Source of the DNA: Terriglobia bacterium
GTDB lineage: Bacteria; Acidobacteriota; Thermoanaerobaculia; Thermoanaerobaculales; Thermoanaerobaculaceae
NCBI GenBank assembly: GCA_020073245.1
Contig: JAIQFQ010000001.1
Location: forward strand, 356,001-420,000
Direction: 5' to 3'
Length of the DNA: 64,000 nt
Of this stretch, positions 23,567-27,615 are shown piece after piece (the first letter of the stretch is position 1; every line of letters begins with the position of its first letter). Both the position numbers and the translations under genes were made by a program. The notes under the pieces were generated by a model that made no database searches, had not been told where the DNA came from, and saw only the letters and a list, made by a program, of their open reading frames with translations.

Positions 23567-24727
23567 ATGGCAGTCTCAGGCAACCTCCGAACGATGCCTT
23601 TCCCGGACCTCATGCAATGGATCTCCGCCAGTCGGAAGACCGGCACCCTGGTGATCAAAGGGCAGCGCTACACCAAGAAGATCCTCTTTCAGGGCGGGCT
23701 CGTCTCGGCGGTCACATCCAACAACCCCCGCGAGCACCTCGGGTACTACCTGGTCGGATGGGGCGTCCTCACGGAGGACGAACTCGAGCACCTGCTCGAC
23801 CGCCAGAAGGAACTCAACGTCATGCTCGGCGAGCTGCTCGTGCAGACCGGCCGCCTCACGCGTGAGCAGGTGGACCATCTGGTGCGACTCAAGACCGAGG
23901 AGACGATCTACGATCTGGTGTACTGGAACGAGGGGGAGTTCTTCTTCCTCGACGACGTCCAGCCTCGGCGCGATTTCAAGGAGCTTCAGCTCCCGGTCGA
24001 TCAGTTCATTCTGGAGGGTGCTCGCCAACTGGACGAGCGCCGCCGCATTGCGGCGGTCATCCCGGACTCCGGTCACATCCCGCGCGTGACGCAGGCGATC
24101 GACGAGACGCGCCTCACCCCGGCCGGGGCGGCCGTGCTGGCGCAGATCGACGGGGTCAAGAGCATCGAGGAGATCGCCCTCGCATGCCGCATGCCGGAGT
24201 TCCCCGTCCTCAGCTTCGTGCACCAGGGCATTCAGAACGGGGTTTTCGAGCTTCAGCCGCCCGCCATGCCGCCTCGTCAGATCCCGGGGTTCTTCCGCTC
24301 GAACTGGCGCGACCGTCTCCTGGAGGCCGAGAGCAGCCTCGCCCTCGGGGACGCCCTCGAGGCGTACCGCAAAATCCTCGAGGTGCGGGAGCACTACTCG
24401 AACATGCCCAAGGCGCTGGCGACCGCCGATGAGCTCGAGCGCGAGATCGTCAAAGAAGTGGAGAAGCTCGCCATCGGGCCGACGACCATCCTCGAGCTTG
24501 CACTGGCGCCGAAGGACATCGTCCAGCTCAAGTGCGCCCCGGAAGAGGGGTTCGTCCTCTCCAGGGTCAACGGACGGTACACGGTGACCCAGATCCTGGC
24601 GCTCTTGCCCGGGGCCAAGCTCTACAACCAGCTGATCATTCACAACCTGATCCAGCGCGGAGTCCTCAAGCTGCGCGAGTCGCAGGAGATCGTGCGCCAT
24701 CCGGGCGCGCCGCGTCTAAGGACCTGA
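23567..24727 (+). CDS. DUF4388-domain protein
   Basis: From the ATG at 23567 the 386-residue product starts with a DUF4388 domain (AVSGNLRTMPFPDLMQWISASRKTGTLVI...GGLVSAVTSNNPREHLGYYL, residues 1-100), a fold shared with PatA/FrzS-type signalling adaptors. A GspE-N-like segment (LTEDELEHLLDRQKELNVMLGELLVQTGRLTREQV) and further winged-helix-like parts follow. It is probably a signalling or motility adaptor; partners are unknown. The 128-bp upstream gap has a GC-rich imperfect hairpin (about 23453-23477) that may end the yajQ message. DUF4388 proteins are frequent in Myxococcota and Acidobacteriota. Confidence 0.75.
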   Translation: MAVSGNLRTMPFPDLMQWISASRKTGTLVIKGQRYTKKILFQGGLVSAVTSNNPREHLGYYLVGWGVLTEDELEHLLDRQKELNVMLGELLVQTGRLTREQVDHLVRLKTEETIYDLVYWNEGEFFFLDDVQPRRDFKELQLPVDQFILEGARQLDERRRIAAVIPDSGHIPRVTQAIDETRLTPAGAAVLAQIDGVKSIEEIALACRMPEFPVLSFVHQGIQNGVFELQPPAMPPRQIPGFFRSNWRDRLLEAESSLALGDALEAYRKILEVREHYSNMPKALATADELEREIVKEVEKLAIGPTTILELALAPKDIVQLKCAPEEGFVLSRVNGRYTVTQILALLPGAKLYNQLIIHNLIQRGVLKLRESQEIVRHPGAPRLRT

Positions 24728-24808
24728 GGTCTCTCTTCCACTTTGTGGAGGCTGTTCGTCGTTGCCCTCCGGGCACGGCTTTCCTTTTGCCCCTCGGGTT
24801 GCACGGCG

Positions 24809-24969
24809 TTCGGGCCTTGCTCGCCCCCGCTCGCTGCGGCCCGAAACTCCTCGGCCGCGACCCGGCAGCGCGTCCCGGAACGGGGCCCCTCGGTGTCCGC
24901 AAGAGACAGCGTCACCGACACCCCGTTCCGGATCCGCGCGCCGGGGACCCCGCGGCCTCGGAGCAATTG
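24809..24969. repeat. Large nested inverted repeat in intergenic region
   Basis: Two hairpins lie back to back. The first is TTCGGGCC (24809-24816) with GGCCCGAA (24838-24845). The second is a long imperfect palindrome whose arms are 24844-24898 and 24915-24969. Within it CCGGAACGGGG pairs perfectly with CCCCGTTCCGG, GGTGTC with GACACC, and GGCCGCG with CGCGGCC. No ORF with recognisable product overlaps it. It could be a transcript-ending structure for the DUF4388 gene or a small non-autonomous mobile repeat. Confidence 0.6.
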
Positions 24970-25115
24970 CCGCCTCACCCGAGGGGCGGGTTGAAGACCC
25001 CCCGCCCGCAGAAGGCGCGTTCATACGAGGTTGATCGGCGCGTATACTTAATGGCGGCCCAGCACCGGAGGATGCAGTGCTCGTAGCGCCCTCGACTGCT
25101 TCTGGGCGGTCACAG

Positions 25116-25139
25116 AAACGCAACCGCCGCAGCGTTTTT
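25116..25139 (+). terminator. Possible rho-independent terminator
   Basis: AAACGC (25116-25121) and GCGTTT (25132-25137) form a stem with a 10-base loop and continue into a run of five T. The stem is short, so this is tentative. Confidence 0.35.
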
Positions 25140-25167
25140 CCCGCCAGCTTAGGCGGCAGATTCTGCA

Positions 25168-25320
25168 GCCTAACCCACGGGGCTCCCGCCCAGCGATTCG
25201 CCACAACATCAAGCGGGGGAACGGCCTTGCCTCGCGCACACCCGACTCCGAACCCCGACAAACGCTGCAGATTCTGCAGTGTTCGCCCGTTTCTCTTCGG
25301 CAGCCGAATATGCGTTAGGC
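25168..25320 (+). other. Candidate integron attC site 1 (about 153 bp)
   Basis: A GCCTAAC box (25168-25174) and a GTTAGGC box (25314-25320) match the R'' and R' consensus (RYYYAAC/GTTRRRY) and are reverse complements of each other. Inner pairing is modest (GGCTCCCG near 25181 with CGGCAGCC near 25300), and the site is long. It lies exactly where the attC preceding cassette 1 is expected, since the ORF at 25337 starts 17 bases after it. Confidence 0.55.
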
Positions 25321-25336
25321 AGCATGAGGTCAGATC

Positions 25337-25777
25337 ATGAAGGTTGGATCGCCACGTGATCTCTTTGTCCATCCGTCGGAGTCGACAGGGTCGCGCTTTG
25401 CGATGTGGCTGCTCCTCTCCGGAGTCGCGACAGCCTTCGTCACACAGATCTTCGGGACGGGCGGCTTGGCGTTCTGGGCCGGGATGATCGTGTTGTCAAT
25501 CGCCACGTCAGTGGTGACGCCGCGTAAAGAGAGTGATAAAGCCCTGGTCCTTGGCGCGGCTGGGGTAGCGGTGGCCTTCTTCATCATCTTCGCGGTTGTG
25601 GGGCTGATCTTAACGTTCGAGAGCCGCCTTGGGTTCCTTGAGCCTTCAACGGATTCAAGAGTCAAGGCTGGCGTGATGCCGACTTGGTACCGAGGGATCA
25701 TGTGGTGCACCTGGCTTGTCTTCGCGGGATATGAGGTTCACCGATTCTATGCGAAGCGCAGACGGCATGCTGCCTAA
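25337..25777 (+). CDS. Integron cassette 1: small integral membrane protein
   Basis: A 146-residue protein of unknown function with about four transmembrane helices (for example MWLLLSGVATAFVTQIF, AGMIVLSIATSVV, GAAGVAVAFFIIFAVVGLIL, IMWCTWLVFAGY). Its base composition is visibly less GC-rich than the flanking chromosome. The TAA stop is supplied by the R'' box of the attC that follows, typical of integron cassettes. AGG of a weak ribosome site precedes the ATG. No family recognised. Confidence 0.7.
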   Translation: MKVGSPRDLFVHPSESTGSRFAMWLLLSGVATAFVTQIFGTGGLAFWAGMIVLSIATSVVTPRKESDKALVLGAAGVAVAFFIIFAVVGLILTFESRLGFLEPSTDSRVKAGVMPTWYRGIMWCTWLVFAGYEVHRFYAKRRRHAA

Positions 25778-25869
25778 CATGCCGTTGCAGCCGCCCCACT
25801 CGGCTGTCACGCCGCGTGCAAAGGCACGCGTCGCGCCAGCCGGCGGGCGGCTGAACGGCGGCGTTAGAT
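25772..25869 (+). other. Integron attC recombination site 2 (98 bp)
   Basis: R'' GCCTAAC (25772-25778) and R' GTTAGAT (25863-25869) flank a near-perfect hairpin. GCCGTT pairs with AACGGC (25854-25859) and CAGCCGCCC (25788-25796) with GGGCGGCTG (25845-25853). One unpaired G at 25787 lies between them, and inside CGGCTG (25801-25806) pairs with CAGCCG (25837-25842). The unpaired base is the extrahelical-base hallmark of attC sites. Confidence 0.9.
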
Positions 25870-25883
25870 GCCGCCCGAAACGC

Positions 25884-26450
25884 ATGACTTTGCCCTTTCG
25901 CATGGCCTTCGCGTCGGCTGGACTCTTGGTATGCGCAACTCTGGCTACCTTCGCGGCGGATGGCTGGCAGACGTTCGAGAGTAAGAGTTATCGCTATCGG
26001 GTCCAGTACCCGTCATCGTGGTACCTGTTCAACCCCAGTGTCGAAGCGCTTGAGATCCTCAATTTCCCACCCAGTCAACGCGTTGAGGGTGTCGTGATCC
26101 GTTCGGGAGGCGCCAGCATCTCAGTGGGCGGAGCGCCGTCAGGAGTTCACAAACTCGATGAGTGGATCAGCCGAGACCTCCGCTTTGGTGGCCTTGTCGA
26201 ACGCCAGGAGATACCCATTCCGAACCCTGAGCCTGCTGGCTGCACCACTCTGACGCGAGTCGATACCGAGGCGGACATGAGTGGAAGTCGCAAAGCGTTC
26301 CAAGTGACGGCGAGGTTCTACTGCGTCGCGAACGCGGGACTCTACGCGGTCACCGTCACGAACTGGAAGCACGATCCGGAGCAACCACATTACCGGAATG
26401 TCGCTCTGCACATGGCCCTCAGTCTGCGTGCAACCGGGGTGGAGAAGTGA
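25884..26450 (+). CDS. Integron cassette 2: exported PsbP-like protein
   Basis: The 188-residue product begins 15 bases after attC site 2 with a signal peptide (MAFASAGLLVCATLATFAA, or six residues longer from 25884). It continues with FESKSYRYRVQYPSSWYLFN, the opening typical of PsbP-like/MOG1 folds found in many secreted proteins. Two cysteines (CTT and FYCVAN) could form a disulfide. The gene ends seven bases before attC site 3. Function unknown. Confidence 0.75.
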   Translation: MTLPFRMAFASAGLLVCATLATFAADGWQTFESKSYRYRVQYPSSWYLFNPSVEALEILNFPPSQRVEGVVIRSGGASISVGGAPSGVHKLDEWISRDLRFGGLVERQEIPIPNPEPAGCTTLTRVDTEADMSGSRKAFQVTARFYCVANAGLYAVTVTNWKHDPEQPHYRNVALHMALSLRATGVEK

Positions 26451-26457
26451 ACGCGCC

Positions 26458-26555
26458 ATCTAACCGGCGGTTGCAGCCGCCCCACTCGGCTGTCACGCCG
26501 CTTGCATGCGCAACCGGCGCGCCAGCTGGCGTGCCGCTAAAGCGCGGCGTTAGGT
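26458..26555 (+). other. Integron attC recombination site 3 (98 bp)
   Basis: R'' ATCTAAC (26458-26464) and R' GTTAGGT (26549-26555). It has exactly the length of attC site 2 and shares with it 32 identical bases starting GTTGCAGCCG. The right arm has diverged, but the outer and central complementarity remains. Recurrent near-identical attC sites are typical of a resident (sedentary) integron. Confidence 0.85.
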
Positions 26556-26631: not shown

Positions 26632-27615
26632 ATGAAAGCGCTCGTGTACACCGAATTCGGGCCCCCGGATGTTCTTCAGCTCACGGAGGTGGCACGACCC
26701 ATCCCCAAGGACGATGAGGTCTTGATACGGATTCGCGCGGCTTCCGTCAACGCTCTCGACTGGCGCATGCTGAGAGGCGCGCCGACCATCGTCCGGATGC
26801 TGTTCGGGCTGCGCAAACCAACGATCGCACAACCCGGCCGACCCGGCCGAGACGTGGCCGGCACGGTCGAAGCGGTCGGCGGGAATGTAACCAAGTTCAG
26901 ACCGGGCGACGAGGTCTTCGGCGTGTGCCTTGGGGCCTTTGCCGAGTATACGTGCGCCAATGAACGTAAATTGGCGCTGAAGCCAGCCAACATTTCGTTC
27001 GCGGACGCGGCAGCCGTACCGGTGGCCGCAGTCTCCGCCCTTCAGGGTCTTCGTGACAAGGGACGAATCCAGCAAGGCCAGAAGGTCCTGGTCGATGGCG
27101 CGTCTGGTGGTGTGGGTACGTTTGCCGTCCAGATTGCCAAGTCGTTCGGGGCTGAAGTCACCGCCGTGTGCAGCACGAGGAACGTGGACACGGCGCGATC
27201 GATGGGCGCAGACCATGTCATCGACTACACGCGAGAGGATTTCACGAATAGCGGGCAGCGTTACGACCTGATCCTCGCTGCGAACGCATACCATTCGATC
27301 TTCGCGTACAGGCGCGCGCTGAGTCGGGACGGAACCTATGTCATGGCCGGAGGTGGCTGGGCTCAAATTGTCCAAACCCTGGTGCTTGGACCATTGCTCT
27401 CACTGATCGGGCGCAAGAAGATGTGCCTGTTCATGGCGAACATCCATCAGAAGGATCTGGTTGTCCTGAAAGATCTCCTCGAAGCCGGGAAAGTCGTACC
27501 CGTCATCGATCGACGCTACCCGTTGAGCGAGGCGGCCGAGGCGATGCGGTATCTTGGCGAGGGACACGCCAGAGGCAAGGTCGTAGTGACGGTGGAACAT
27601 CGTGGCGAAGCGTGA
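26632..27615 (+). CDS. Zinc-independent MDR oxidoreductase (NADPH:quinone-reductase-like)
   Basis: A 327-residue medium-chain dehydrogenase/reductase. GroES-like N-terminal domain (KALVYTEFGPPDVLQLTEV, GRDVAGTVEAVGG) and Rossmann domain (VDGASGGVGTFAVQIAKSFGAEVTAV); no zinc-binding cysteines or histidines in the usual places. Predicted to reduce quinones or enals with NADPH. TAAGGAG precedes the ATG at 26632. It starts 77 bases after attC site 3 and has the same orientation as the cassettes, but no attC follows it, so it is either a last cassette that lost its site or the chromosomal flank. Confidence 0.85.
   Translation: MKALVYTEFGPPDVLQLTEVARPIPKDDEVLIRIRAASVNALDWRMLRGAPTIVRMLFGLRKPTIAQPGRPGRDVAGTVEAVGGNVTKFRPGDEVFGVCLGAFAEYTCANERKLALKPANISFADAAAVPVAAVSALQGLRDKGRIQQGQKVLVDGASGGVGTFAVQIAKSFGAEVTAVCSTRNVDTARSMGADHVIDYTREDFTNSGQRYDLILAANAYHSIFAYRRALSRDGTYVMAGGGWAQIVQTLVLGPLLSLIGRKKMCLFMANIHQKDLVVLKDLLEAGKVVPVIDRRYPLSEAAEAMRYLGEGHARGKVVVTVEHRGEA

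Follow-up and report, generated by a model that had tools for sequence, protein, structure and literature searches.

The cassette array and its surroundings

The window, the whole stretch of 64,000 nucleotides analysed here, belongs to a 738-kb contig (C63) of the source genome G000, a MAG of 4.38 Mb that is 94% complete with 3.5% contamination. It contains two gene cassettes, headed by an attI module and followed by a zinc-type alcohol dehydrogenase gene, Table 1. The coordinates that the initial annotation gave for two 98-bp attC sites hold, both sites match the attC covariance model R2, and the inverse R''/R' boxes and 32 identical bases described for them are present. Over 94 nt the two sites are 83% identical, including the 32-nt identical stretch.

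Table 1. Features of the array, in positions of the window.
Feature	Position	Strand	Remarks
Putative cassette promoter	25020..25048	+	TTCATA-17-TATACT; sole promoter-like site in 24700-25400 (shuffles average 0.1)
Degenerate intI remnant	25043..25111	+	last ~22 codons, spanning the catalytic Tyr codon through the stop; aligned to the intI end of G010 and to G008C41
Leader ORF	25077..25340	+	GTG start behind GGAGGA; GTT AGG frame across the junction; stop forms ATGA overlap with cassette 1 gene
attI core	25255..25320	+	hairpin, CCCGTTT, hairpin, CGC, GTTAGGC; 65.6 bits with covariance model R1, the window being 1 of the 12 sequences used to build it
Putative attI recombination point	25314..25315	+	G^TTAGGC; homology to other attI modules stops here, downstream sequence differs at every site
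Gene cassette 1	25315..25863	+	begins at TTAGGC, next to the attI G; ends with the G in the R' box of attC1
Cassette 1 gene	25337..25777	+	146 aa, predicted membrane protein, no Pfam match
attC1	25772..25869	+	structured strand is the bottom strand; 95.8 bits with R2
Gene cassette 2	25864..26549	+	begins at TTAGAT; ends with the G in the R' box of attC2
Cassette 2 gene	25884..26450	+	188 aa, likely signal peptide, no Pfam match
attC2	26458..26555	+	imperfect L stem; 78.8 bits with R2
Zinc-type alcohol dehydrogenase gene	26632..27615	+	Pfam ADH; 3' of the array; gene absent from this locus in relatives

The bottom strand of attC1 folds far better than shuffled sequences (z -7.15, 0/200), and that of attC2 moderately better (z -3.1, 1/200). 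According to BLAST, attC1 is 93-96% identical to attC sites of the intI-linked array of the same genome, with E-values down to 1e-39. With its imperfect L stem, attC2 is probably the weaker site and may recombine poorly.

The two cassettes share one orientation and have, as originally described, a lower GC content (58.5% and 59.3%) than their surroundings (64.7% in the upstream gene, 68.6% in the window). The beginning of cassette 1 (25314 onwards) can pair with its own R'' region (25761-25778), and the beginning of cassette 2, judged by eye, likewise pairs with its own R''. Circular cassettes joined at G^TTRRRY would be expected to show this. The alcohol dehydrogenase gene probably belongs to the same insert; its membership in the cassette array is uncertain, and no attC was detected 3' of it. 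A search of the whole window against Rfam gave no match, and neither did a comparison with plasmid records.

A third, longer attC had been proposed at 25168. This candidate is ruled out, since the segment 25168-25320 folds no better than shuffles (z -0.96) and is homologous to attI modules, being part of the conserved module that heads the array.

The flanking genes are YajQ, DUF4388 and then, on the opposite strand, a PH-like gene, lying 44-95 bp apart in G004, G006, G007 and G010, and the synteny of the window contig with relatives extends to both sides. The proposal that the array is the far end of a sedentary integron does not stand, as the array is flanked by two housekeeping genes which, in these four relatives, are direct neighbours. 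G001 and G003 have other genes at the locus. None of the relatives examined carries an attI or the window cassettes there, so these are not genes fixed at the locus without attC. The module and the cassettes, and probably the alcohol dehydrogenase gene too, are by synteny an insertion specific to this species among the species examined. In two relatives other inserted genes are found between DUF4388 and the PH-like gene (G003:C97, G001:C159), and this convergent gene junction thus seems to take up DNA repeatedly.

The attI module in front of the array

The window was originally described as a CALIN. There are indeed at least two attC sites and no intI nearby, which is the operational definition; what the label misses is the full attI module at the head of the array. 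We therefore describe the array not as a plain CALIN, but as a platform that is headed by attI and has no integrase gene beside it. The window attI is homologous to sites beside intI in the same and in related genomes, and among its copies different cassettes are joined to the site at the GTTRRRY insertion point. The window falls short of a complete integron, as it contains no integrase gene (as had been noted) but merely the degenerate tip of one; the intact intI lies on contig C33.

The region 24985-25330 aligns over 350 bp, with 67% identity, to the sequence 5' of the array on contig C78, and the alignment includes the edge of a neighbouring repeat. The end of this window region resembles the C33 region between intI and the first cassette. 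The neighbouring repeat (24762-25010) is a GC-rich intergenic sequence of about 250 bp with many copies across the genome and its congeners (e.g. on C58, C63, C36, C33 and C45), often 70-90% identical. It adjoins three attI modules and is mostly located elsewhere. The homology between the window and C33b (see below) in this upstream stretch was considered as a part of attI and rejected, as it is this dispersed repeat.

The integrase gene and its own array

The search for an integrase elsewhere in the genome, which had been proposed as a check, identified one intact integron integrase gene (C33:103866-104813, 472 bits to TIGR02249 with a cut-off of 265). Over its length the protein can be aligned with 2A3V, a solved integron integrase, and the alignment includes the catalytic residues with the tyrosine. 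The gene is followed, on the same strand, by an attI and at least 16 attC sites up to near the end of the contig. The same 131-bp attC is found near the ends of two contigs (C33:116634-116764 and C14:32162-32292), which makes the C14 array a probable continuation of the C33 array. Joined in this way, the intI array would probably contain more than 30 attC sites in total. All genomes used here are draft MAGs, and a second intI may therefore lie within the missing ~6% of G000.

Dispersed attI copies in the genome and the genus

To describe the element, an attI covariance model was built from 12 aligned sites, including those of the window and C78. The alignment contains 24 invariant columns, and four base pairs are changed on both sides, compared with an average of 1.2 in shuffles. 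The common core consists of a hairpin, CCCGTTT, a second hairpin, CGC and GTTAG, followed by a different cassette at each site.

With this model, attI modules are found at seven places in G000, at least six of them in addition to the intI-linked one. The same element is present at the array starts on C45, C33b (C33:76.4k) and C52, and a copy on C19 was added by BLAST. The attC covariance search of G000 gave, besides the sites of the intI array on C33 and C14, five further clusters, on C45, C33b, C52, C63 (the window) and C78; two more matches were weak and close to the cut-off. An attI heads each of the five clusters that lie apart from the intI array. The C19 copy (G000:C19:168-233) is located at the start of a 4.9-kb contig and has no clear attC behind it; either a long first cassette or decay of the attC may account for this.

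Among the congeners, seven out of eight have attI sites according to the model, five of them strong (E below 1e-8), and outside the family the model found nothing convincing. Five genomes have a match at a distance of about 140-215 bp from intI, on its 3' side. Three of these genomes, G001, G006 and G010, were not part of the training set, and the matches in them, which are on the strand of intI, identify the element as attI. Orphan attI sites are also present in G007 and G008, where the search found no intI.

Two copies in the genus have an altered structure. At G008:C60:3978-4035 (minus strand), a truncated attI is joined within its hairpin to GGCGGCTGAACGGCG..., apparently the 3' half of an attC. 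Such a fusion could result from a deletion between attI and attC. At G003:C119:78239-78301 (minus strand), the junction of the module is apparently interrupted by insertion-sequence-like DNA.

Two attI subtypes and their leader ORF

The attI modules are of two types, which differ in the position of the leader ORF. In the short type it starts 75 nt 5' of the junction, behind TTCGGAGG, and in the long type 237-240 nt 5' of it. The long type includes the window, C78, G008C41, G003C46, G001C13 and the intI-linked site of G010. In G010 the leader starts within the 3' end of intI, where GGAGGA encodes the Gly-Gly of the GGRGVRSP motif. The -10 element of the window is common to other long-type modules, and in the intI-linked copy of G010 this TATACT coincides with the Tyr-Thr codons of the catalytic tyrosine. 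The idea that a better -10 arose after the loss of intI was dropped, as the intI-linked G010 copy already has TATACT.

The tip of intI is retained at orphan long-type sites, intact in G008C41 (as AGGRGVRSPLDRL followed by the stop) and degenerate in the window, which indicates that the window site descends from an attI once located beside an intI. At the short-type orphan sites we looked for an intI remnant and found none. At the locus of G001:C87:2971-3036 three related species carry short-type attI, whereas the core in G001 is of the long type, which suggests gene conversion between attI copies.

The GTT AGG frame is open over 30 codons in 24 out of 25 sites, compared with 4 and 14 out of 25 for the other two frames; these sites are related, and the counts do not represent 25 independent trials. 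Selection on the peptide of the long leader is not supported, as the differences by codon position (810/735/829) include no third-position excess, and it seems to be the open frame, not the peptide, that is kept. The stop codon of the leader overlaps the start of the gene by one base (ATGA or GTGA) in 5 out of 14 first cassettes, including that of the window, and the same exact +1 overlap is found in 3 out of 31 inner cassettes. This comparison is only suggestive of a coupling between the leader and the first cassette gene. In the first cassette on C45 (C45:43173-42600) the attI leader continues in frame into a lipoprotein-like ORF without an evident N-terminal start codon, a possible fusion of the two.

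Cassettes at orthologous orphan sites

Orphan attI sites with a common upstream flank are present in four species (C45, G008C140, G003C201 and G001C87), and a second orthologous site is present in three (C52, G003C99 and G007C88). A comparison with both flanks was possible for two pairs. For C45 and G001C87 the downstream flank is common as well, and the DNA enclosed by the two flanks matches at attC sites only. The second pair, C52 and G007C88, has the downstream flank in common; the DNA between the flanks is unrelated, except for attC-like matches and an 88-bp match next to the flank. The first cassette of G007C88 is also found as the third cassette of G001C13, with 88% identity, and the match runs from the GTTAGAC junction to its end in the attC. 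Neither the orthologous sites nor G001C13 has an intI at the site. Different cassettes at the same site, together with one cassette shared between sites, form the pattern that would be expected from cassette turnover by an integrase in trans.

A proposed platform served in trans

We propose that the window contains a satellite integron platform, composed of attI, promoter, leader and two cassettes, and that the integrase acting on it most likely comes in trans from the one intI found in the genome. From the sequences compared here we assign this reading a probability of about 0.78. The integrase encoded on C33 would recombine the folded bottom strand of a cassette attC with the double-stranded attI at G25314^TT, and the same enzyme would serve the other dispersed attI copies. 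Transcription would begin 5' of attI at the putative promoter. The leader ORF, which begins in the former 3' tip of intI, would be translated through the recombination point, and the overlap of its stop with the start of the cassette 1 gene could then load ribosomes onto whichever cassette is first. The sequences show the homology of the sites, their junctions and dispersal, different cassettes at orthologous sites, a cassette common to two sites and an open leader frame; recombination in trans, promoter activity and translational coupling are predictions of the model. Points against it are the draft state of the MAGs, the orphan sites in G007 and G008, where no intI was found, the imperfect fold of attC2 and, in the second family described below (f7), an attC behind only 4 of 10 copies.

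One proposal for the origin of CALINs is the degradation of integrons (PMC9024848); each orphan site could accordingly have lost its own intI in place and now be an inert relic. The last ~22 intI codons retained in long-type modules including the window, with an intact C-terminal motif in G008C41, agree with this, and due to such remnants at part of the long-type sites some of them may simply be degraded integrons. G002C244, which shares a flank with the intI locus and has merely a weak intI match, fits as well. However, the short-type orphan sites lack any such remnant, the cassettes at orthologous sites are wholly different, and one cassette occurs at different sites, which argues that the sites were used after they lacked an intI. 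The leader frame and its start have also been kept. As a general explanation inert relics are therefore unlikely; an origin by loss of intI is in itself compatible with present use in trans.

Ordinary duplication or homologous recombination could also have spread arrays together with their attI, the integrase being inactive at the copies. Segmental copying is suggested by the similarity of C78 and the window, which extends into the edge of the neighbouring repeat, and the other attI subtype at the orthologous locus of G001C87 looks like the result of gene conversion. Such processes account for the spread of the module, but not for differing cassettes at orthologous sites where only attC sites match, and they leave the exact boundary of the cassette shared by G007C88 and G001C13 unexplained. 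We give this explanation little credence.

Off-target insertion of cassettes at a chance secondary site of the attG type would likewise give an array without intI, and IntI is known to make insertions of this kind (Loot et al. 2024, cited by PMC12444791 and PMC12901181). At the window this was rejected as highly improbable, because the site is an attI homologue: a structured site of 66 nt with up to ~240 bp of leader 5' of the insertion is homologous to the intI-linked attI of the genus and family, and the empty locus in relatives has no module. Finally, scattering of the pieces of one long array over several contigs by assembly or binning, for which the contamination of 3.5%, the attC repeats that confuse assembly and contigs of several genomes that break soon after attI might speak, can be practically dismissed given the 738-kb window contig with synteny on both sides and the orthologous sites assembled separately in several genomes.

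Relation to known systems

The building blocks of the platform (attI, attC, IntI and an ORF-11-like leader) are known, and it is their arrangement that appears to be new. With two tandem attC sites in one orientation and no intI nearby the window resembles a CALIN as defined in IntegronFinder. That definition rests on attC alone, while the window and its sibling arrays are headed by a conserved attI with a putative promoter and leader. The intI on C33, located upstream of attI and cassettes on the same strand, is arranged as in the sedentary chromosomal integron of Treponema (PMC3607928). However, the literature counts one attI per integron beside intI, and here one intI is found together with attI at several loci.

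In attI1 of class 1 integrons, ORF-11 tolerates amino-acid changes and serves to load ribosomes onto the first cassette (PMC8876359). The putative leader described here resembles it, as an ORF with a good ribosome-binding site spans attI and the crossover, its stop would be provided by the inserted cassette and the peptide seems to matter little. It is longer, with 25 or 79-80 codons before the junction, and, unlike ORF-11, it would be read in the GTT AGG frame, in which the core site contains no stop; translation would then end at, or close to, the start of the cassette gene.

Cassettes far from intI are also a feature of attG (Loot et al. 2024); as presented in PMC12444791, attG are non-attC, non-attI sites at many genomic loci, whereas the sites here are attI copies. 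Mobile integrons with delta-attI-type cassettes (PMC12901181) likewise have partial or complete attI copies in unusual places. Within those arrays, a fragment of attI takes the position of attC 3' of a gene; the copies described here are whole modules at the heads of separate arrays.

In the integron model, good expression is limited to the cassettes near the single attI and its promoter. If our reading is correct, several attI platforms under one integrase multiply the expressed positions, apparently dead CALINs are live sites, and the integrase gains a choice of targets. This bears on the origin of CALINs, which is usually ascribed to degraded integrons or off-target insertion. Reviews and tools describe one attI per integron, close to intI, and the tools do not search for attI outside class 1 (PMC9024848, PMC3607928, PMC9668308); due to this the arrangement could be common and yet unseen. 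Our literature search, with most subscription papers outside its coverage, found no description of dispersed or duplicated attI under one integrase. CALINs distant from intI are also found repeatedly at conserved loci in Xanthomonas (PMC12444791), and these are worth re-reading for attI heads.

A second acidobacterial family

On balance, we favour a more general view, in which a distributed integron consists of one integrase acting in trans and a network of dispersed attI platforms. Every platform would have a promoter and a leader of its own, which would allow the expression of many first positions at once. Such systems may have arisen more than once in Acidobacteriota, and some CALINs elsewhere may hide attI heads. 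Two acidobacterial families show dispersed attI, with mutually unrelated attI sequences. In the second family (f7), two species (G053 and G059) have about 190 bp behind intI in 3 and 7 dispersed copies, so that dispersed attI is not a quirk of a single genus. This element, which is unrelated in sequence to the attI of the first family, ends in GGGCTCAATAACAA^GTT, and the homology among its copies stops at GTT. An attC is found behind 4 of the 10 copies.
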